DNA of 44,336 nt, taken from Marivita sp. Lineage in GTDB: Bacteria; Pseudomonadota; Alphaproteobacteria; Rhodobacterales; Rhodobacteraceae. Where the stretch lies: the NCBI RefSeq assembly GCF_022763305.1, contig NZ_JALEGT010000096.1, positions 1 through 44,336 of the forward strand. Reading direction: 5' to 3'. Under the pieces are notes generated by a model. That model worked only from the letters and a program-made list of their open reading frames with translations. It searched no databases and had not been told where the DNA came from. Positions 7,500 to 44,336 of this stretch are shown one piece after another. Position numbers and translations under genes: made by a program. Within the stretch, counting starts at the first letter, position 1; every line of letters begins with the position of its first letter.

Positions 7500-7541
7500 G
7501 CCCAAACGCGTTGACGCGTTTGGGCACTCCGTCGACGGAGT
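7500..7541. repeat. Tandem palindromes between convergent genes
   Basis: Two hairpins lie back to back in the gap between the ABC1-kinase gene and hisG. The first is GCCCAAACGCG-TTGA-CGCGTTTGGGC (arms 7500-7510 and 7515-7525). The second is the perfect 16-bp palindrome ACTCCGTCGACGGAGT (7526-7541). Their centres are 21 bp apart. They probably act as a bidirectional terminator or 3'-end protector for both genes and belong to the same structural class as the arrays at 32.5, 35.9 and 44.2 kb. Confidence 0.75.
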
Positions 7542-7549
7542 GACCCGCG

Positions 7550-30403: not shown

Positions 30404-31153
30404 TCAGTCCTCGTCGTCGTCCGACCAGCGTTTCATGTAGTCGGTCTGGTACACCCCACCCTGCGCCTGCTGCGTCAGCGGCTTGCGCACCACGTAATGC
30501 AGGATCACCGGCGACCCGGCGGGCAGCTCGCCCCGTATGCGGGGCCGCACGCCGGTGTCGTTGGGGTTCGTGGTCCGTGCCGTCTTGCGCGCATGGGCCG
30601 GGCGGATCGGCTGCAAAAGCAGGTCGAGCACCTCGTATCCCATCGCCTTTTGCCAGAAGCCGTACACCATCTCCGGGGTGATCTGGTAGAACCCGTGGTT
30701 GATCCAGTTGTTGCAGGGCGAATGCCCGATCAGCACGCCCCCCGGGCGCAGCATCCGGTCGATATTGCGATAGGCGGTGGGCAGTTCAAACACATGCTCG
30801 CAGGTGCCGCCGTCATAGATCACGTCGAACCGCGCGGCCAGGTCGTCCCCAACGGGCTGGGTCAGATCGTGGATGACGCTCGCGTTCTCGAAATCCGAAA
30901 AATCGAGCGAATCCACACTGTCGAAGCCCAGCTTGGCAAAGAACGTCTCGCTGTAAGCGTTGTCCGGGTTGCGCAGGTCATCCTCGGTCAGGCCCGGCAG
31001 ATGGGTCTGGATCGCCGCTTCGAAATCCTTGGCCGACGGCCCTCGTCTGCTACCGACAAAGCCCTGCCGCCCCAGCATGAGGAACGCGCCGCCCAGCTGG
31101 TGCCCCTTGACGGTTTCGATCAGCAGCGTGCCCAACGTATCCGGTATCGACAT
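30404..31153 (-). CDS. Methyltransferase-like protein with degenerate motif I
   Basis: A 249-residue protein that resembles class I SAM-dependent methyltransferases in its central half: RFDVIYDGGTCEHVFELP (motif II/IV-like) and IDRMLRPGGVLIGHSPCNNW (motif post-IV). The glycine-rich motif I is replaced by a non-canonical FLMLGRQGFVGSRRG near residue 25, so SAM binding is uncertain. The C-terminus is acidic (WSDDDED). It is convergent with pepT, with 6 bp between the stops. The substrate is unknown; related proteins I recall occur near surface polysaccharide genes, which are not seen here. Confidence 0.7.
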   Translation of the reverse strand: MSIPDTLGTLLIETVKGHQLGGAFLMLGRQGFVGSRRGPSAKDFEAAIQTHLPGLTEDDLRNPDNAYSETFFAKLGFDSVDSLDFSDFENASVIHDLTQPVGDDLAARFDVIYDGGTCEHVFELPTAYRNIDRMLRPGGVLIGHSPCNNWINHGFYQITPEMVYGFWQKAMGYEVLDLLLQPIRPAHARKTARTTNPNDTGVRPRIRGELPAGSPVILHYVVRKPLTQQAQGGVYQTDYMKRWSDDDED

Positions 31154-31273
31154 GACCTGTTCTCACCTATCACCCTTGCCCGGCACCATCCGCCGGGACC
31201 GAGGGCAATGCAACCCGCCCCAGGCCGAAGGCGCGGGACAGCGATGCGCGAAAACACCATGTGGACGAGGCGC

Positions 31274-31681
31274 TTAGTTGGTCTCCTGCAAGGACTGCAG
31301 ATAGCCCACCAGATCGGCAATCGGTTCGGAGACAAGCACCGGCTGACCGCTGGGCAGCTTCATCGGTGTGTTCGCGACCCCTTCGAAATAGGGGCCATAG
31401 ACGGGCATGGGCGACCCGTGGCTGACCAGCGGGTCGGTGCCGTCGATCCGCTTGAGCACCCGCTCCAGCGGGAAGGTGCCGTCATGCCGCGCCGACAGGG
31501 CCGTCAGATCCACGGGCTGCAACACCAGCGCACCGGCCAAAGGCCCCTGCCCCTTGGCATCCGCGCCGTGGCAGGTGGCGCAATGGGTCTGGAACAGGGC
31601 GCGCCCCTGATCGGCATCCTGCGCCATCACCGGCGCGGCTGTCAGGGAGAGAACGGAAAGGCAGGCAAGAACACGTCGCAT
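31274..31681 (-). CDS. Class I cytochrome c, periplasmic
   Basis: A 135-residue protein: Sec signal peptide MRRVLACLSVLSLTAAPVMA, then a single haem-binding CATCH motif (about residue 34), and a likely axial methionine in GSPMPVYGP or ANTPMKL. It is a small soluble c-type electron carrier. The divergent gene across a perfect FNR box encodes a DUF1194/VWA protein, so both are probably controlled by oxygen limitation. With the FNR centre at 31748.5, an activator position of -41.5 would put transcription near 31707, 26 nt before the start. Confidence 0.9.
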   Translation of the reverse strand: MRRVLACLSVLSLTAAPVMAQDADQGRALFQTHCATCHGADAKGQGPLAGALVLQPVDLTALSARHDGTFPLERVLKRIDGTDPLVSHGSPMPVYGPYFEGVANTPMKLPSGQPVLVSEPIADLVGYLQSLQETN

Positions 31682-31741
31682 GAGAGGGACTCCGTCTGTC
31701 TTAGAATACCCCGAGTCTGCCCCGACTGGCCCCGCGCGGCG

Positions 31742-31755
31742 TTGATCCGGATCAA
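31742..31755. promoter_or_regulatory. FNR/FnrL box between cytochrome c and DUF1194 genes
   Basis: TTGATCCGGATCAA is a perfect match to the FNR-family consensus TTGAT-N4-ATCAA. It lies almost exactly midway between the two divergent starts (about 67 bp from its centre to each), allowing class II activation in both directions. Confidence 0.88.
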
Positions 31756-31816
31756 GCCTTTTGCACTGGGCGGGAAACGGACTACCTCCCATGAAGTGAT
31801 CGTTGGAGGGTTCGAC

Positions 31817-32539
31817 ATGCGCGCTGTGGTCCTGTCTATCTGTCTTCTCTTTGCCGCGCCCGCGATGGCGCAGGACACCGATCTCGAACTGGTGCTGCTG
31901 GCGGATGCGTCCGGCTCCATCGACCAGCGCGAGATCGACTTTCAACGACAGGGCTATGCGCAGGCGATCACCGACCCCGAGGTTCTCGCCGCCATCGCCA
32001 ACACCGCCTATGGCTCGATTGCCGTGACCTATGTGGAATGGGCTGCCAACACGGCGGTGGTCGCCGACTGGATGAAGATCGACGGGCCGGAAAGTGCTGC
32101 GGCCTTCGCCGCCGAATTGCTCAACAAACCGCGTCAGGCCTATGGACGCAATGCCATCGGTGCTGCACTGCTCGACGGGTTGCGGCTGATGGAGACGAAC
32201 CAGTACGACGGCTGGCGGCGGGTGATCGACTTTTCCGGCGACAGCGTGCGCAGCTATTCCGGACCCTCGATTGCCGAAGCGCGGGCAACGGTGGTGGCTG
32301 CGGGCGTGACGATCAACGCCCTTCCGATCCTGCGCCCCGACGATCCCGGCCGCGCACAGGGCGGACTCGAAGCACAATACGAGGCGCAGATCATCGGCGG
32401 ATTGGGCGCGTTTGTGGTGACGGCCGAAAACCGCGAGTCCTTTGCAGAGGCGGTGAAGCGGAAGCTGATCCTGGAGATCTCGGGCGAGATGCCGGGGCAG
32501 GACGTGGCGGAGGTGGAAAGGCTCTTCGAAGAGCCTTAG
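31817..32539 (+). CDS. DUF1194 protein with VWA-like domain
   Basis: A 240-residue exported protein: Sec signal MRAVVLSICLLFAAPAMAQ, then a von Willebrand factor A-like fold starting LELVLLADASGSIDQREID with the MIDAS motif DxSxS. Later metal-site residues are plausible in FSGDSVRS (residues about 138-145). The function of DUF1194 is unknown; VWA domains bind partner proteins through a metal ion. GGAGGG precedes the start. It is divergent from cytochrome c across the FNR box. Its last codons (RLFEEP and stop) lie inside the first palindrome of the array that follows. Confidence 0.88.
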   Translation: MRAVVLSICLLFAAPAMAQDTDLELVLLADASGSIDQREIDFQRQGYAQAITDPEVLAAIANTAYGSIAVTYVEWAANTAVVADWMKIDGPESAAAFAAELLNKPRQAYGRNAIGAALLDGLRLMETNQYDGWRRVIDFSGDSVRSYSGPSIAEARATVVAAGVTINALPILRPDDPGRAQGGLEAQYEAQIIGGLGAFVVTAENRESFAEAVKRKLILEISGEMPGQDVAEVERLFEEP

Positions 32540-32583
32540 ACCGCGATTTCGAAATCGCGGATCAAGCGTCTTCGAAGACGCTT
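32518..32583. repeat. Array of three perfect TTCGAA palindromes, 23-bp period
   Basis: AAGGCTCTTCGAAGAGCCTT (32518-32537), CCGCGATTTCGAAATCGCGG (32541-32560) and AAGCGTCTTCGAAGACGCTT (32564-32583) are each perfect 20-bp palindromes starting exactly 23 bp apart, with 3-bp spacers. The array lies between convergent genes and covers the end of the DUF1194 coding sequence and the first base of the opposite stop codon. Confidence 0.9.
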
Positions 32584-33062
32584 CACTCGTCCAGCGACCC
32601 GTGCACAGCCAGCAGCGTCAGTTCCGCCTCCTGCGGTTCAATCACCCGGAAACTTTCCTTCACTCCGGCCTCGGTCAACTCGCGGCTCACCGTCAGCAGG
32701 GTGTTGGGCGCGTGTTCGTCACACAACTCTGCCATATGCGCGATCTCGGCTTCGGCCACCGGGCGCGCGGCCTCAACGGACGGCGCGCCGTAGATGTCGA
32801 CGAAATGCTGGGCAAGGCCCTGCACCAAAGCGGCGTGCTCCACCGGCTCCATCTGCGTCACCGCAACAAAGCTCACCCGGCCAAAGGTCTCGGCCCCGAG
32901 CCAGCCATTGGTGAAGGCCTGTTTCGCGCGGCCCTCAAGATCGGCCTCGGACCAGTTGGAAAACTCGAACCCGCCCGAAATGCACCATTCCCCGGTGCGG
33001 GCCGGGGAATGAAAGACGCGCTGGTCGCTTTCGTCGAAATGGATGGCGCGGGCCAGTTTCAT
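32583..33062 (-). CDS. DUF6505-type protein of the FDH locus
   Basis: A 159-residue soluble protein without signal or membrane segments. RAIHFDESDQRVFHSPARTG at the N-terminus and TGEWCISGGFEFSNW are its most distinctive stretches; a cysteine at about residue 106 lies in HMAELCDEH. I believe this is the family called DUF6505, seen with Mrp and biotin-ligase-like genes in Rhodobacterales; the function is unknown. The start at 33062 overlaps the previous stop as ATGA; the longer frame upstream reads through the neighbour. It is the last gene of the four-gene minus-strand operon. Confidence 0.75.
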   Translation of the reverse strand: MKLARAIHFDESDQRVFHSPARTGEWCISGGFEFSNWSEADLEGRAKQAFTNGWLGAETFGRVSFVAVTQMEPVEHAALVQGLAQHFVDIYGAPSVEAARPVAEAEIAHMAELCDEHAPNTLLTVSRELTEAGVKESFRVIEPQEAELTLLAVHGSLDE

Positions 33063-35118: not shown

Positions 35119-35883
35119 ATGACCGCAATCCCGATCCTGTCGCGCGCCACGTTTGCCCTTGGGCTTGTGCTGACCGGTGCCACCGCCCTGACTGCACAGG
35201 AAGACAAGACCTTTACGCTGGCTGCCCCCGACGCCTTGGCAGAGAGCGGGTTGCTCGGATACATCCTGCCGCGCTTTTCGCTCAAGACCCAGACGCGGAT
35301 CACACTGGCGGGTCCCGACGCGGTCGCGGATGCGCGGTTCGGCGACACGGGAATGCTGGCCTTCGAGGGGCTTGGTACGGTGTGGCGGTTCGACAGCGGC
35401 ACGGACCCGGACGCCCAGCGCTTCGCCGACTGGCTGCGCTCGGATGTCGGGCGCAACACGGTGGACAGCTACGCGGTTGAGGGCGCCGCGCTGTTCACCT
35501 CCGAGGTCGAAGTGACACAGGTGGTCGTCGAAGTCAGCTATGACGGAGATGCCCAGCGCGGCGAGACCGCGTCGCTTGCCTTCTGCGGGCGCTGCCATGT
35601 GGTGAGCGAGAAGAACCGGATGAACTCCATCGGGTCGACGCCATCCTTTGCCGTGCTGCGGACACTGACCGATTGGGAATATCGGTTCCAGGCCTTCTAC
35701 GCACTCAATCCGCACCCGGCCTTCACCCAGATCGCGGACGTGACCGACCCCTTCGATCCATCGCGCCCGTCGCCGATCGCGGCGGTCGAGATGACGCTGG
35801 ACGATCTGGAGAACATCATGGCGTTCGTGCAGGGGATCGCGCCTGCGGATTTGGGCGGGCCTGTCCAATCCCTACAGGATTGA
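35119..35883 (+). CDS. Shortened TupA-like domain fused to cytochrome c motif
   Basis: A 254-residue exported protein (signal MTAIPILSRATFALGLVLTG). Residues about 30-55 (SGLLGYILPRFSLKTQTRI) match the N-terminal start of tungstate-binding TupA proteins, and about 95-125 (DAQRFADWLRSDVGRNTVDS) match the far C-terminal end of the same family. The ~130 residues normally between them are reduced to about 40. A cytochrome-like domain follows with one haem motif CGRCH (about residue 156) and EMTLDDLENIMAFVQG near the end. It lies between the Mrp operon and the FDH Fe-S protein. A haem electron carrier or sensor role is possible; oxyanion binding is doubtful because much of the lobe is gone. Confidence 0.7.
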   Translation: MTAIPILSRATFALGLVLTGATALTAQEDKTFTLAAPDALAESGLLGYILPRFSLKTQTRITLAGPDAVADARFGDTGMLAFEGLGTVWRFDSGTDPDAQRFADWLRSDVGRNTVDSYAVEGAALFTSEVEVTQVVVEVSYDGDAQRGETASLAFCGRCHVVSEKNRMNSIGSTPSFAVLRTLTDWEYRFQAFYALNPHPAFTQIADVTDPFDPSRPSPIAAVEMTLDDLENIMAFVQGIAPADLGGPVQSLQD

Positions 35884-35889
35884 GGCAGA

Positions 35890-35954
35890 ACGCCCTTGGC
35901 AGGGCGTGCCACCGCGATTTCGAAATCGCGGCAAGCGCGGTCGAACGCGCTTGC
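35890..35954. repeat. Array of three palindromes between convergent genes
   Basis: ACGCCCT-TGGC-AGGGCGT (35890-35907), CCGCGATTTCGAAATCGCGG (35912-35931) and GCAAGCGCG-GTCGAA-CGCGCTTGC (35931-35954). Centres are 23 and 21 bp apart. The middle unit is identical to the middle unit of the array at 32541-32560. The array ends 5 bp from the opposite stop codon. Confidence 0.88.
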
Positions 35955-35958
35955 CCGC

Positions 35959-37929
35959 TCAATGATCCTTTCGCTTCGAATAGGGCGAGTCGGTCAGGTA
36001 ATCATCCGTCGTGCGCGGGATGCGCGGCTCGCCCAGCGCAAACGGGTTGTTCTGGGAATGATACTGCGCCTGGATCCGGCAATTGTCGCACATCTGGATC
36101 ATCTTCGCCGCATCGCTGGTGGCGAACATGGAGTGCTTTCCCGCCAGTTTCTCGGTGATCTTCTCGATGGTCGATTTCACCCCGAACAGCGCCCCGCACT
36201 CGATGCAGGCGAAGGGTTCCTCTTCGTTCAGCACCACCTGGCTGAACGCCGCATCGGTGAGGTTCATGCGCGGCTCCAGCGTGATCGCGGTCTCCGGGCA
36301 GATCGTGGCGCAGATGCCGCATTGCAGGCAGGCGTCCTCCTGGAACAGCAGTTGCGGCAGGTCCGGGTTGTCGCCCAGCGCGCCCGAGGGGCAGAGCGAC
36401 ACGCAGCTCAGACACAGCGTACAGGCGTCCTTGTCCACCAGCACCGCCCCGTAGGGCGCGTTCTGCGGCAGCGACAGAATCTCGGCCTCGGGGTTCAGAG
36501 ACTTGGCCGCGACGCGGGCCACCTGACGGCGGGTGCCGATGGGCAGGCTTGGCGAGGCCACAGGCTTCGGAACAGCGTCCCCGTAGAGATGATCGCTCAG
36601 CGCGTCGGGATCGACCATGTCGATCACCTGGACCCGCCCTTCACCGGACAGGGCATTCGCCAACATTGCCTCGTGCTCCGGCGTGTCCCGTTCGGTGCGC
36701 GGGGCCAGCAGCACTTCGACCGACGCAAATCCACAGCTCAGCGCCGCCAGCATCTCGGCGTGGCCAAAGGCGGCAAGGCTGTCCATCGCAAAGGGAATCA
36801 CATCTGCAGGCAGGCCCCGGCCAAAGCGCGCGGCGAGGCGGATCATCTCGCCCCCATGATCGGCATCATGCACCAGCAGGCGCGGGGCAATCCCTCCCGC
36901 CTTGCGATAGGTGGAGGACAGCGCATCCAGCCGCCGGAACACGGCAGACACCGGCGGCGCGTCATAGGCGATGGCGCCCGACGGGCAAAGTGCGGCACAG
37001 GCCCCACAGCCCGCACAGATCATCGGGTCGATGGCGACGTGATCCCCGTCCGAAGTGATCGCCCCGGTCGGGCAGATGTTGAGACATTTGGAACAGCCGG
37101 TCTGTTCGGCACGGCTGTGGGCGCACAGCGCCGGCTCCAACGCGATATAGAGCGGCTTTTCAAACGTGCCGACCATCTGGACCGCTTCGGCCAGCAGTGC
37201 CGCCACCGCTCCGGGCTGGCGCGGATCGGCGCGCAGGTATCCTTCGCGCTTGTGCGGCGCGGGCACGAAGGGTGTGTCCCCGGTGAGGTCGATCACGAGG
37301 TCGCATTCGGACACGGCGCCGTCCTTGGGCGCGCTGAAGGTGAACGCCCCACGTCCGCCCGGCAGAAGCTGCGCAAAACCGTCGATCCGGACGTCGAACT
37401 GCCCCAACGCACCGGTCAGGCTACGCACACGCCCTCGCACCACGTCGAACCGGCGGTCCATCGGAACATCGGACGAGTCGGTCTGCAGAACCGTCACCGC
37501 CAGGGTTTCGCAAAGCTGTTCGGCGGCAGGAAACGCGGCGTCGCCCGCGCCCACGATCAGGCAGGTGCCTTCGCTGACCACATCCACCACCTTGGGCGCG
37601 GGCAAGGTCAACACCGCTTCGGCCGCGAGCGCCGCCTGTTTTGGTCCGGCCTTGGCCGCTTCGTCGCTCCAGCCGGCGCGGTCGCGGATATCAACGAGGT
37701 TTGGCGCGTCGATGCCCAGCTCTTCGGCCAACATGTCGAAGAAAGCACCTTCCTGCGCGCAGGCGATGATGACGTCGCCTGCTTCCATCGCCTTGGCGGC
37801 GGCCTCGGCCTGCGTGCCGCAGAGATTGGTGTAAACCTTTGACGGATCGAGCGAAGTTGCCGCGTCGATGGCGCTGGCGTCAACGGTCTGACTGCCGAGG
37901 CAGTCGCAAAGAAGCAGTCTGGTTCCCAT
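35959..37929 (-). CDS. Multi-cluster 4Fe-4S protein of the FDH locus
   Basis: A 656-residue soluble protein. The N-terminal ~250 residues look like an HdrA-related domain (LLLCDCLGSQTV, TNLCGTQ, ACAQEGAFFD) without a clear FAD-binding GxGxxG. Two 4Fe-4S ferredoxin pairs follow: GCSKCLNICPTGAI and CAGCGACAALCPSGAI (about residues 278-330), then CTLCLSCVSLCPSGAL and CLQCGICATICPETAI (about 503-560). Two CxxC sites, FACIECG (about 572) and MCDNCR (about 613), end the protein. It would hold at least four [4Fe-4S] clusters. In Rhodobacterales it sits by DUF3305/DUF3306 and FDH. It is divergent from DUF3305. It may pass electrons or clusters to the FDH system in the cytosol. Confidence 0.85.
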   Translation of the reverse strand: MGTRLLLCDCLGSQTVDASAIDAATSLDPSKVYTNLCGTQAEAAAKAMEAGDVIIACAQEGAFFDMLAEELGIDAPNLVDIRDRAGWSDEAAKAGPKQAALAAEAVLTLPAPKVVDVVSEGTCLIVGAGDAAFPAAEQLCETLAVTVLQTDSSDVPMDRRFDVVRGRVRSLTGALGQFDVRIDGFAQLLPGGRGAFTFSAPKDGAVSECDLVIDLTGDTPFVPAPHKREGYLRADPRQPGAVAALLAEAVQMVGTFEKPLYIALEPALCAHSRAEQTGCSKCLNICPTGAITSDGDHVAIDPMICAGCGACAALCPSGAIAYDAPPVSAVFRRLDALSSTYRKAGGIAPRLLVHDADHGGEMIRLAARFGRGLPADVIPFAMDSLAAFGHAEMLAALSCGFASVEVLLAPRTERDTPEHEAMLANALSGEGRVQVIDMVDPDALSDHLYGDAVPKPVASPSLPIGTRRQVARVAAKSLNPEAEILSLPQNAPYGAVLVDKDACTLCLSCVSLCPSGALGDNPDLPQLLFQEDACLQCGICATICPETAITLEPRMNLTDAAFSQVVLNEEEPFACIECGALFGVKSTIEKITEKLAGKHSMFATSDAAKMIQMCDNCRIQAQYHSQNNPFALGEPRIPRTTDDYLTDSPYSKRKDH

Positions 37930-43193: not shown

Positions 43194-43787
43194 ATGGCAC
43201 GCGCTAAATTTCTAGTCGACGCCGAACGCTGCATCGAATGCAACGCCTGCGTCACGGCCTGTAAGAACGAGCACGAGGTTCCTTGGGGGATCAACCGCCG
43301 GAAGGTGGTCACGATCAACGACGGCAAACCCGGCGAACGCTCGATCTCGGTGGCCTGCATGCACTGCTCGGACGCGCCCTGTATGGCCGTCTGCCCGGTG
43401 GACTGCTTCTACCAGAACGAAGAGGGTGTGGTCCTGCACTCCAAGGACCTCTGCATCGGCTGCGGCTACTGCTTCTACGCCTGCCCCTTCGGCGCACCGC
43501 AGTACCCGCAAGCAGGCAACTTCGGGTCGCGCGGCAAGATGGACAAGTGCACTTTCTGCGCCGGTGGCCCGGAAGAGAACCACTCCACCGCCGAGTTCGC
43601 CAAGTACGGCCGCAACCGCATCGACGAAGGCAAGCTGCCGATCTGTGCGGAAATGTGCGCCACCAAGGCCCTGCTCGCCGGGGATGGCGACGTGGTGTCG
43701 GCGATCTACCGCGAGCGCGTCGTGGCGCGCGGGTTCGGCTCGGGTGCATGGGGCTGGGGTACAGCCTACGACCAGAAAGACGGCTGA
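43194..43787 (+). CDS. fdh3B: Formate dehydrogenase beta subunit (4Fe-4S)
   Basis: A 197-residue ferredoxin-like electron-transfer subunit. Cysteine clusters are [15 protein letters not shown] (about residue 12), [18 protein letters not shown] (about 55-72), [16 protein letters not shown] (about 88-103) and [19 protein letters not shown] (about 122-160), enough for four [4Fe-4S] clusters. No signal peptide or C-terminal membrane helix is seen, so it is probably exported as a passenger with alpha and anchored by a separate cytochrome b, which is not in this window. A strong terminator follows within 30 bp. AAGGAGGAG precedes the start. Confidence 0.94.
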
Positions 43788-43815
43788 TCCGTTCAGGTCC
43801 CGTCAGCAAGACATC

Positions 43816-43846
43816 AAAAGCCCCGGAGATCGCTCCGGGGCTTTTT
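43816..43846 (+). terminator. Strong intrinsic terminator after FDH beta
   Basis: AAAAGCCCCGGAG-ATCG-CTCCGGGGCTTTT (stem arms 43816-43828 and 43833-43845), a perfect 13-bp stem followed by T. The T-rich end gives a classical terminator, and the A run makes it bidirectional in form. Confidence 0.92.
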
Positions 43847-43849
43847 CGT

Positions 43850-44200
43850 TGCGGTGCGCCGGGCGCAAGCCGAATCAACGCAAGTGGCACCGGTCGGGTG
43901 TTCTCCCGCCGGGTGGTTCTGGTGCAGGCCGGGCCTTAGCCCGGCATTTGGTCATAAGGAAAGCAGCGGCGCCGCCCCGTGGGCCTGACGGTTCTCTCGA
44001 GTCCGCGATTCAACGCGCGACCTGTGCTCTGGGTCTCAGAGCCTTGCAAGACCGGTCTCTCATGGTCAGCCTTCCGGCATACGAGAGAACTATCAGTATC
44101 GTCTGCGCGGCATGGGAGTGACCCTTCCCGCTCAAAAGCTTTTGTGGGCGTGGGTATCGGACGCGTGGGTTAAGAACCGGGAAACGGACCGTGCGGCGCG
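43850..44200. other. Structured stretch without a recognisable gene
   Basis: No convincing reading frame was found on either strand. Several hairpins occur: GCCGGGC-CTTA-GCCCGGC (43928-43945), GCTCTG-GGTCT-CAGAGC (44026-44042), a palindrome AGACCGGTCT (about 44049-44058), and long-range arms GTTCTCTCG (43991-43999) and CGAGAGAAC (44082-44090) that could close a multibranched structure. It could be a non-coding RNA, a long leader for a gene beyond the window, or decayed sequence. It does not match 5S rRNA, tmRNA or RNase P as I know them. Confidence 0.3.
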
Positions 44201-44310
44201 CGGTCTTTCGAAAGACCGGGACGACGGCTTGAAACCGTGTCACACGCGCGTTCGAACGCGCGTTTTCACAGAGCCTGCGAAGGCTCTGACCCGCATTTTC
44301 GAACATGCGG
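44201..44310. repeat. Array of five TTCGAA-type palindromes
   Basis: CGGTCTTTCGAAAGACCG (44201-44218, perfect), ACGGCTTGAAACCGT (44224-44238, imperfect), ACGCGCGTTCGAACGCGCGT (44244-44263, perfect), CAGAGCCT-GCGA-AGGCTCTG (44269-44288) and CCGCATTTTCGAACATGCGG (44291-44310, one mismatched pair). Centres are spaced about 21.5, 22.5, 25 and 22 bp. It is the largest of the four arrays and lies near the window end, so the flanking gene on the right is unseen. Confidence 0.88.
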
Positions 44311-44336
44311 CCGCAGCTCAAAGGTCGAGATCCACC

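Follow-up and report, generated by a model that had tools for sequence, protein, structure and literature searches.

What kind of element keeps its palindromes perfect while their arms change, and what could it do at the end of a gene? The question is raised by an array at 32.5 kb of the window, the whole stretch of 44,336 nt analysed here, which is the entire contig C12 (C12:1-44336) of a 121-contig, 4.43-Mb assembly (G000). As the initial annotation described, three perfect 20-bp palindromes start there at 32518, 32541 and 32564, with a period of 23 and each centred on TTCGAA, and one unit, CCGCGATTTCGAAATCGCGG, is identical in the 32.5- and 35.9-kb arrays, where it is the middle unit of each (Table 1). 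Three further arrays had been judged comparable. Those at 35.9 and 44.2 kb are indeed of the TTCGAA type, but the 7.5-kb pair belongs to a separate subfamily B, made up of palindrome pairs with CG-TYRA-CG centres (TCGA, TTGA or TCAA) 21-22 bp apart and seen at window 7500-7542 and in loci L015 (10094), L115 (17463) and L248. The best named relatives of the Fe-S protein of the window come mostly from Marivita (80-91% identity), which places the genome in that genus by homology, and the genus set used here consists of 17 genomes, G000 and 16 further ones.

Table 1. Palindrome units and flanking convergent genes in the window
Feature	Positions	Strand	Remark
Array 1 unit 1: AAGGCTCT-TCGA-AGAGCCTT	32518..32537		overlaps 3' end of the + strand gene 30497-32539
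Array 1 unit 2: CCGCGATT-TCGA-AATCGCGG	32541..32560		
Array 1 unit 3: AAGCGTCT-TCGA-AGACGCTT	32564..32583		adjoins stop of the - strand DUF6505 gene
Array 2 unit 1: ACGCCCT-TGGC-AGGGCGT	35890..35907		variant loop
Array 2 unit 2: CCGCGATTTCGAAATCGCGG	35912..35931		same as array 1 unit 2
Array 2 unit 3: AAGCGCG-GTCGAA-CGCGCTT	35933..35952		one core mismatch
Array 3 (subfamily B) unit 1: GCCCAAACGCG-TTGA-CGCGTTTGGGC	7500..7525		
Array 3 (subfamily B) unit 2: ACTCCG-TCGA-CGGAGT	7526..7541		
Array 4 unit 1: CGGTCTT-TCGA-AAGACCG	44201..44218		
Array 4 unit 2: degenerate, TTGAAA centre	~44222..44239		placed by eye
Array 4 unit 3: ACGCGCGT-TCGA-ACGCGCGT	44244..44263		
Array 4 unit 4: CAGAGCCT-GCGA-AGGCTCTG	44269..44288		
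Array 4 unit 5: CCGCATTTTCGAACATGCGG	44291..44310		imperfect
Left convergent gene of array 1, DUF1194 domain	30497..32539	+	gene call and domain
Right convergent gene of array 1, DUF6505	32583..33062	-	gene call and domain
Left convergent gene of array 2	35119..35883	+	gene call; no Pfam match
Right convergent gene of array 2, 4Fe-4S protein	35959..37929	-	gene call and domain

Our own gene calls agree that the arrays at 7.5, 32.5 and 35.9 kb lie between convergent genes. The right flank of the 44.2-kb array is found on contig C27: the final 97 bp of the window recur, in reverse complement, at the end of that contig. A 225-aa gene ends on C27, convergent onto the array, and the distance between the orthologues in genome G149 fits a window-C27 join at this point. 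On the left side, the nearest called gene ends at 43787, about 410 bp off. The assembly thus breaks at an array, the overlap with C27 lying within it (window 44240-44336). Arrays and assembly gaps also meet at the ends of L026 and L224, where the contig of another genome stops about 50 nt past the Fe-S stop, and in L265 a run of N follows the EEP-type gene, which was named from its sequence. Two other features were seen in this region. A classical bidirectional intrinsic terminator (A-tract, 13-bp stem, T-tract), unlike the arrays, lies at 43816-43845 and begins about 28 nt past the 4Fe-4S gene ending at 43787. The non-coding stretch at about 44000-44180, which carries 'agcgggaagggtcactcccatgccgcg' on the - strand, stands beside the EEP-type gene in about 10 of 15 Marivita genomes (by eye); it gave no Rfam match at gathering score and no tRNA, and it is a candidate small RNA or leader.

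Abundance and anatomy of the TTCGAA arrays

Hairpins were counted in 572,731 bp of G000, comprising the window and 39 stretches (12.9% of 4,426,255 bp). The TCGA loop was present in 24 of 271 four-nt-loop hairpins with arms of at least 6, and in 22 of 105 with arms of at least 7. Among the 64 exact palindromic cores, TTCGAA was the most frequent with 25 units (runner-up GTCGAC, 6) and the only one to form tandem pairs (6), and ten resamples under a first-order Markov model each produced 0-1 TTCGAA units, with no tandem pair for any core. When one core mismatch was allowed, TTCGAA came seventh by number (51; CCGCGG 66) and formed 17 tandem pairs versus 22 for the remaining 63 cores combined, a looser count in which 5 of the 22 are GTCGAC pairs and overlapping cores are not separated.

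Across the whole genome, the two-unit pattern TTCGAA-N15..21-TTCGAA matched 32 times versus once for the reversed control, and it was found in every one of the 17 genus genomes, with 8-60 matches each compared with 0-4 for the reversed control. The lowest Marivita counts, 8 versus 3 in G151 and 11 versus 4 in G162, are near background by count, and G151 contains genuine arrays despite its low count. At least one match occurred in 194 of 215 sampled genomes of the order, mostly 0-7 outside Marivita; these counts take in coding matches, and the reversed control is too low because TTC GAA are Phe-Glu codons. Beyond Marivita, one genome of genus g159 (55 versus 1) and three of genus g201 (22-47 versus 0-2) are array-rich. 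Seven loci from g159 and g201 contain arrays built in the same way, and no close homologue of the Fe-S protein was found in either genus. A three-unit pattern occurred in 5 of 149 genomes taken at one per genus: it was present 10 times in G000, looks genuine in G068 and partly so in G126, and does not in G102 and G109. In other Rhodobacterales genera (69 loci, 951,962 bp), 201 gene gaps between 30 and 400 bp long contained no TTCGAA array, and neither of the two clusters of tandem hairpins with arms of at least 7 in 72 loci (993,866 bp; three labelled Marivita) had TCGA loops. The initial annotation had described a family of tandem palindromes and proposed scanning the genome and related Rhodobacterales for it. 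The counts support a genome-wide family in G000, enriched over both resampled sequence and the reversed control, and the two-unit pattern recurs in every genome of the genus. The family is genuine, spread through one genus and common in two others, and both its form and its place are precise.

The anatomy of the units was read from 79 distinct arrays with 213 units, which had to show 5 or more of 6 arm pairs and no more than 2 mismatches to TTCGAA; positions 4-9 and the core were used in the selection and position 10 was not. This set contains mutual orthologues, one likely false positive (L103 2113) and a small number of arrays with a GTCGAC core, and some loci that come from named records may repeat genomes sampled under other handles. 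Counted outwards from the centre, pairing stays at 0.90 or above as far as position 10 and then drops to 0.37 at position 11, so the unit is 20 bp, with 8-bp arms, a TCGA loop and the core TTCGAA. Each array has 2-5 units, spaced 20-25 bp apart with a mode of 23. This range rules out strict helical phasing, and it leaves little of the earlier suggestion that a period of about two helical turns would align bound proteins on one face.

No base is fixed at arm positions 5-7, and positions 8-10 lean to G, A/C and A. There are 102 distinct 7-nt left arms among the 213 units, the commonest of which recurs 14 times. Degenerate dimer binding sites were rejected as an explanation, since arm bases are free to change and yet, at positions 4-8, pair in 0.98-1.00 of these preselected units, and half-site degeneracy would not pair. 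The core, read outwards from the centre, is C 0.94, T 0.99 and T 0.94 in these units, which were preselected near TTCGAA. Among 139 neighbour units that were chosen core-blind and had each of the six arm pairs, the core is exactly TTCGAA in 112, and 22 of the 27 variant cores are not palindromic, as expected of a loop. In predicted RNA stability, TTCGAA ranks 62nd of the 64 palindromic cores, tied with the least stable (six arms). A rank this low rules out a stable loop as the cause of the preference for TTCGAA, and the core must be maintained by something besides fold energy. The view that selection acts on structure and not on a fixed sequence is therefore borne out by the arms, which vary while paired, but not by the core, which is nearly fixed and is not explained by RNA stability.

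Placement at gene 3' ends

Of the 79 arrays, 45 lie between convergent genes, in agreement with the convergent bias first noticed in the window, 26 are co-directional, 2 divergent, 4 at contig edges and 2 'in gene'. Arrays begin at a median of 6 nt from the stop codon, and 76 of 105 distances fall within -2 to 10 nt, with 11 of 116 distances, all above 150 nt, left out. Among the co-directional arrays, 15 of 19 start within 10 nt of the upstream stop, where 5.9 would be expected under uniform placement; 7 of the 26 had no called stop within 200 nt and are left out of this count. Because genes were called with a custom script using a codon score, a long distance to the stop, or an array placed 'in gene' (two cases), may reflect a miscall. 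A survey of 118,019 genomes reports an inverted-repeat peak 50-80 bp past the stop codon (PMC13155455).

The U-tract hairpins of the same genomes are placed differently. In about 1.36 Mb of three genus genomes, 52 of them had a median distance of 24 nt from the stop (Mann-Whitney p 2e-11 versus arrays), and no U-tract follows the arrays, with T at 0.18-0.19 in the next 15 nt. Classical terminators are ruled out by the missing U-tract and by the 6 versus 24 nt, and the bidirectional terminators proposed in the initial annotation do not hold in the usual sense, although the convergent bias speaks for them. That bias would also suit bidirectional terminators that are I-shaped, lack a U-tract and stand in tandem. 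Methylosinus sporium, like the present host, is an alphaproteobacterium. Its most prevalent intrinsic terminators are reported to be I-shaped ends (PMC12403871). In addition, a strong terminator-like hairpin follows the EEP-type gene in the three genomes where that gene is most divergent (73-75% identity), at the place where 5 of the 12 others have an array, but the neighbouring sequence past the gene differs in those three. Considering also the lack of a U-tract and the short stop distance, we regard this explanation as improbable. In convergent gaps of 30-400 bp, a U-tract hairpin, an array or both were found in 9, 5 and 0 of 39 gaps in G000, in 7, 3 and 1 of 30 in G163, and in 5, 1 and 0 of 26 in G155; by these counts the arrays are a minority class of gene end.

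We favour the reading that the arrays are REP-like, stop-proximal hairpin arrays of the 3'-UTR that shield mRNA ends, a function that we infer and to which we would give an even chance. An array transcribed from either side would fold into two to five short hairpins, and both strands would carry the same UUCGAA loop, the core being self-complementary. After Rho-dependent termination or read-through, the hairpins would set the limit of the mRNA 3' end, and 3' exonucleases would halt at them just past the stop codon. The first hairpin would be close enough for the terminating ribosome to reach, and E. coli REPs arranged in this way are reported to act on translation. A putative loop- or core-specific factor would probably read the core.

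Pairing at the RNA and DNA levels

A stem kept only as mRNA should tolerate G-U pairs and not A-C. On the mRNA strand of the 26 co-directional arrays, G-U pairs numbered 2 versus 4 A-C in 469 pairs, whereas U-tract hairpins at 25 co-directional gene ends had 9 versus 1 in 225 (Fisher p 0.036 for the G-U/A-C ratio and 0.001 for the G-U rate, on small numbers). Hairpins without a U-tract at 61 gene ends were intermediate (17 versus 8 in 549), with a ratio not significantly different from that of the arrays (p 0.17). An mRNA-strand excess of G-U over A-C, the mark of a selected RNA structure, was thus not found in the co-directional arrays, where numbers are small. The convergent arrays gave G-T 11 versus A-C 1 over distinct units in file orientation, which has no fixed strand meaning, and the one-sided changes in orthologous units gave A-C 21 versus G-T 8, again in an orientation without fixed meaning. 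The pairing does not look kept by RNA alone, and the low predicted RNA stability of TTCGAA is a second difficulty for a plain RNA reading. The scarcity of G-U on the mRNA strand, on these small numbers, points to palindromy kept at the DNA level, and template switching or a reader of DNA hairpins may act in this way besides a role at the gene end.

The arrays might even be purely DNA-level elements, that is, cruciforms or single-stranded DNA hairpins bound by a putative nucleoid, topological or recombination protein that needs TTCGAA and any perfect stem. This would agree with the near absence of wobble asymmetry on the mRNA strand and with a core nearly fixed by sequence although the arms are free. 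However, a pure DNA element has no obvious reason to lie 6 nt from stop codons, the spacing is not strictly helical, and neither a Y1/RAYT match nor a candidate protein was found in G000. We consider this reading unlikely.

The orthologous gaps show how the arms evolve. The DUF6505 gene is present in 15 of the 17 genomes, and the gap beside it holds an array in 8 and a single palindrome in one more. In the 8 genomes with arrays, 98.4% of 192 cells are paired and 9 of 24 pairs have changed on both sides, each beyond all 500 shuffles; the pair-type number, one of five measures, was matched by 100 of 500. This gap was picked by its flanking gene, and relatedness inflates covariation counts, as the tool warns. 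Arms that change while pairing is kept, as the initial annotation anticipated for orthologous gaps, are therefore found here. The HisG gap of subfamily B, also near a stop codon and also covarying, was aligned for the 9 of 16 genomes with the gene in which both units are visible. Its cells are paired in 98.5% of 135, 3 of 15 pairs have changed on both sides (46 of 500 shuffles match), and its covariation score was matched by none of the 500 shuffles. In G150 (L208) and G163 (L212), unrelated CTCGGG...CCCGAG hairpins stand in the DUF6505 gap in place of the TTCGAA array.

Among 101 orthologous unit pairs (707 cells), some of which are probably misaligned or not true orthologues, 165 cells changed on both sides and stayed Watson-Crick, versus 58 changed on one side or broken. 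In 31 of the 86 differing unit pairs, 3-7 pairs were altered at once. Units are gained, lost and replaced among orthologous arrays, and some orthologous gaps are empty of hairpins. Since some orthologous gene ends have no array, each array is dispensable. Compensatory changes can arise by template switching, as has been published (PMC8794818). The palindromes could be a mutational by-product: template switching during replication, together with shuffling of units, would create them and keep them perfect, and they would simply be tolerated in 3' gaps. The excess of two-sided Watson-Crick changes and the simultaneous replacements agree with this, allowing for the probably misaligned units in these data, but the one core among 64, the 20-bp length, the 6-nt stop distance and the presence in 17 of 17 genomes would be left unexplained, and we think a by-product distinctly unlikely. 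The earlier idea that covariation reflects selection is upheld insofar as pairing is kept; the near-absent wobble on the mRNA strand and the common multi-pair replacements also fit template switching.

For the preferred REP-like arrays, perfect palindromy would probably be maintained by template-switch arm repair together with selection for pairing. A wider proposal, tentative and on balance doubtful, is that the arrays represent a class of repeat whose identity lies in its shape and not in its sequence. Around a TTCGAA core, a 20-bp stem with almost any arms would be duplicated or reassembled as a unit at the 3' ends of genes, and template switching or an enzyme that reads hairpins would preserve its palindromy at the DNA level; a putative dedicated core-binding factor would turn the stop-proximal hairpins into defined mRNA ends for both convergent genes. 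The arrays separate what such a palindrome seems to need (a perfect stem, a six-letter heart and a place about 6 letters past the stop) from what it does not need, a particular arm sequence. Orthologous arrays across one genus are also a natural test of whether compensatory change comes from selection or from template switching. If the hairpins shape mRNA ends, they would be a source of short symmetric 3'-end parts for alphaproteobacteria. The nearly fixed core and the wobble result are the points likeliest to surprise specialists.

Relation to known extragenic palindromes

Against Rfam, the whole window gave one match up to E 1, below the gathering score, and positions 43780-44336 alone gave six, all below it. 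The U-tract terminators of the same genomes likewise stand at gene 3' ends, but they have a U-tract, lie at a median of 24 nt and tolerate G-U. I-shaped terminators are similar to the arrays as U-tract-less hairpins at gene ends; however, the passages on them in PMC12403871 and PMC7406221 do not describe fixed-core arrays, and the Marivita element lies 6 nt from the stop. The pertinent parts of PMC12306157, PMC2267715 and PMC7821165 contain no match to the Marivita array. Y1_Tnp (RAYT) was also searched for, as many REPs have a RAYT transposase. There were no matches in G000, which rules out RAYT-mobilised REPs, and the transposase is present in 4 of the 17 genus genomes.

The REP/BIME elements of the GTAG/CGTC superfamilies are described as extragenic palindromes of 20-40 bp, often clustered, found downstream of coding regions and mostly between convergent or co-directional genes, with a family sequence, GTAG or CGTC end tags and G-T pairs in their stems (PMC3733652). 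The Marivita arrays are similarly extragenic, clustered, present in many copies and located at gene 3' ends, but no arm is conserved family-wide (102 distinct left arms in 213 units). A GTAG/CGTC end tag was not seen, no base exceeding 0.46 at positions 11-14 as read from a symmetrised profile, and the unit ends lean to AAG/ACG/CCG.

The initial annotation knew of no description of such tandem arrays. Arrays with free arms and a fixed core were indeed not found described in the open-access literature searched, but a near relative was: Br-REP1 of Bradyrhizobium japonicum, CCGGAATC-TCGA-GATTCCGG, is the closest found. This 20-bp palindrome with 8-bp arms is described as the middle one of three placed where the 3'-UTRs of two convergent genes overlap; dRNA-seq suggested complementary small RNAs at that site, 'fast evolution' was noted, and its one consensus occurs at about 200 intergenic sites (PMC5082802). 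The same source states that REPs hinder 3'-5' exonucleases, have a part in termination and, if no more than 15 nt from the stop codon, make ribosomes stall (PMC5082802), the last being the placement seen for the Marivita arrays. Both elements are 20-bp palindromes with a TCGA loop, grouped with other palindromes between convergent genes of an alphaproteobacterial host. They differ in the centre, which is TCTCGAGA in Br-REP1 and TTCGAA in Marivita, and the Br-REP1 consensus CCGGAATCTCGAGATTCCGG is not matched by the Marivita arrays, given their core and variable arms. Br-REP1 has a single consensus, whereas the Marivita arms differ from unit to unit with only TTCGAA nearly fixed, and the tight distance to the stop codon is likewise unlike Br-REP1. 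GTAG/CGTC REPs have a fixed sequence, end tags and stem wobble, and the arrays are set apart from them for this reason. We therefore file the Marivita arrays as a variant of extragenic palindromes, outside the GTAG/CGTC REPs.
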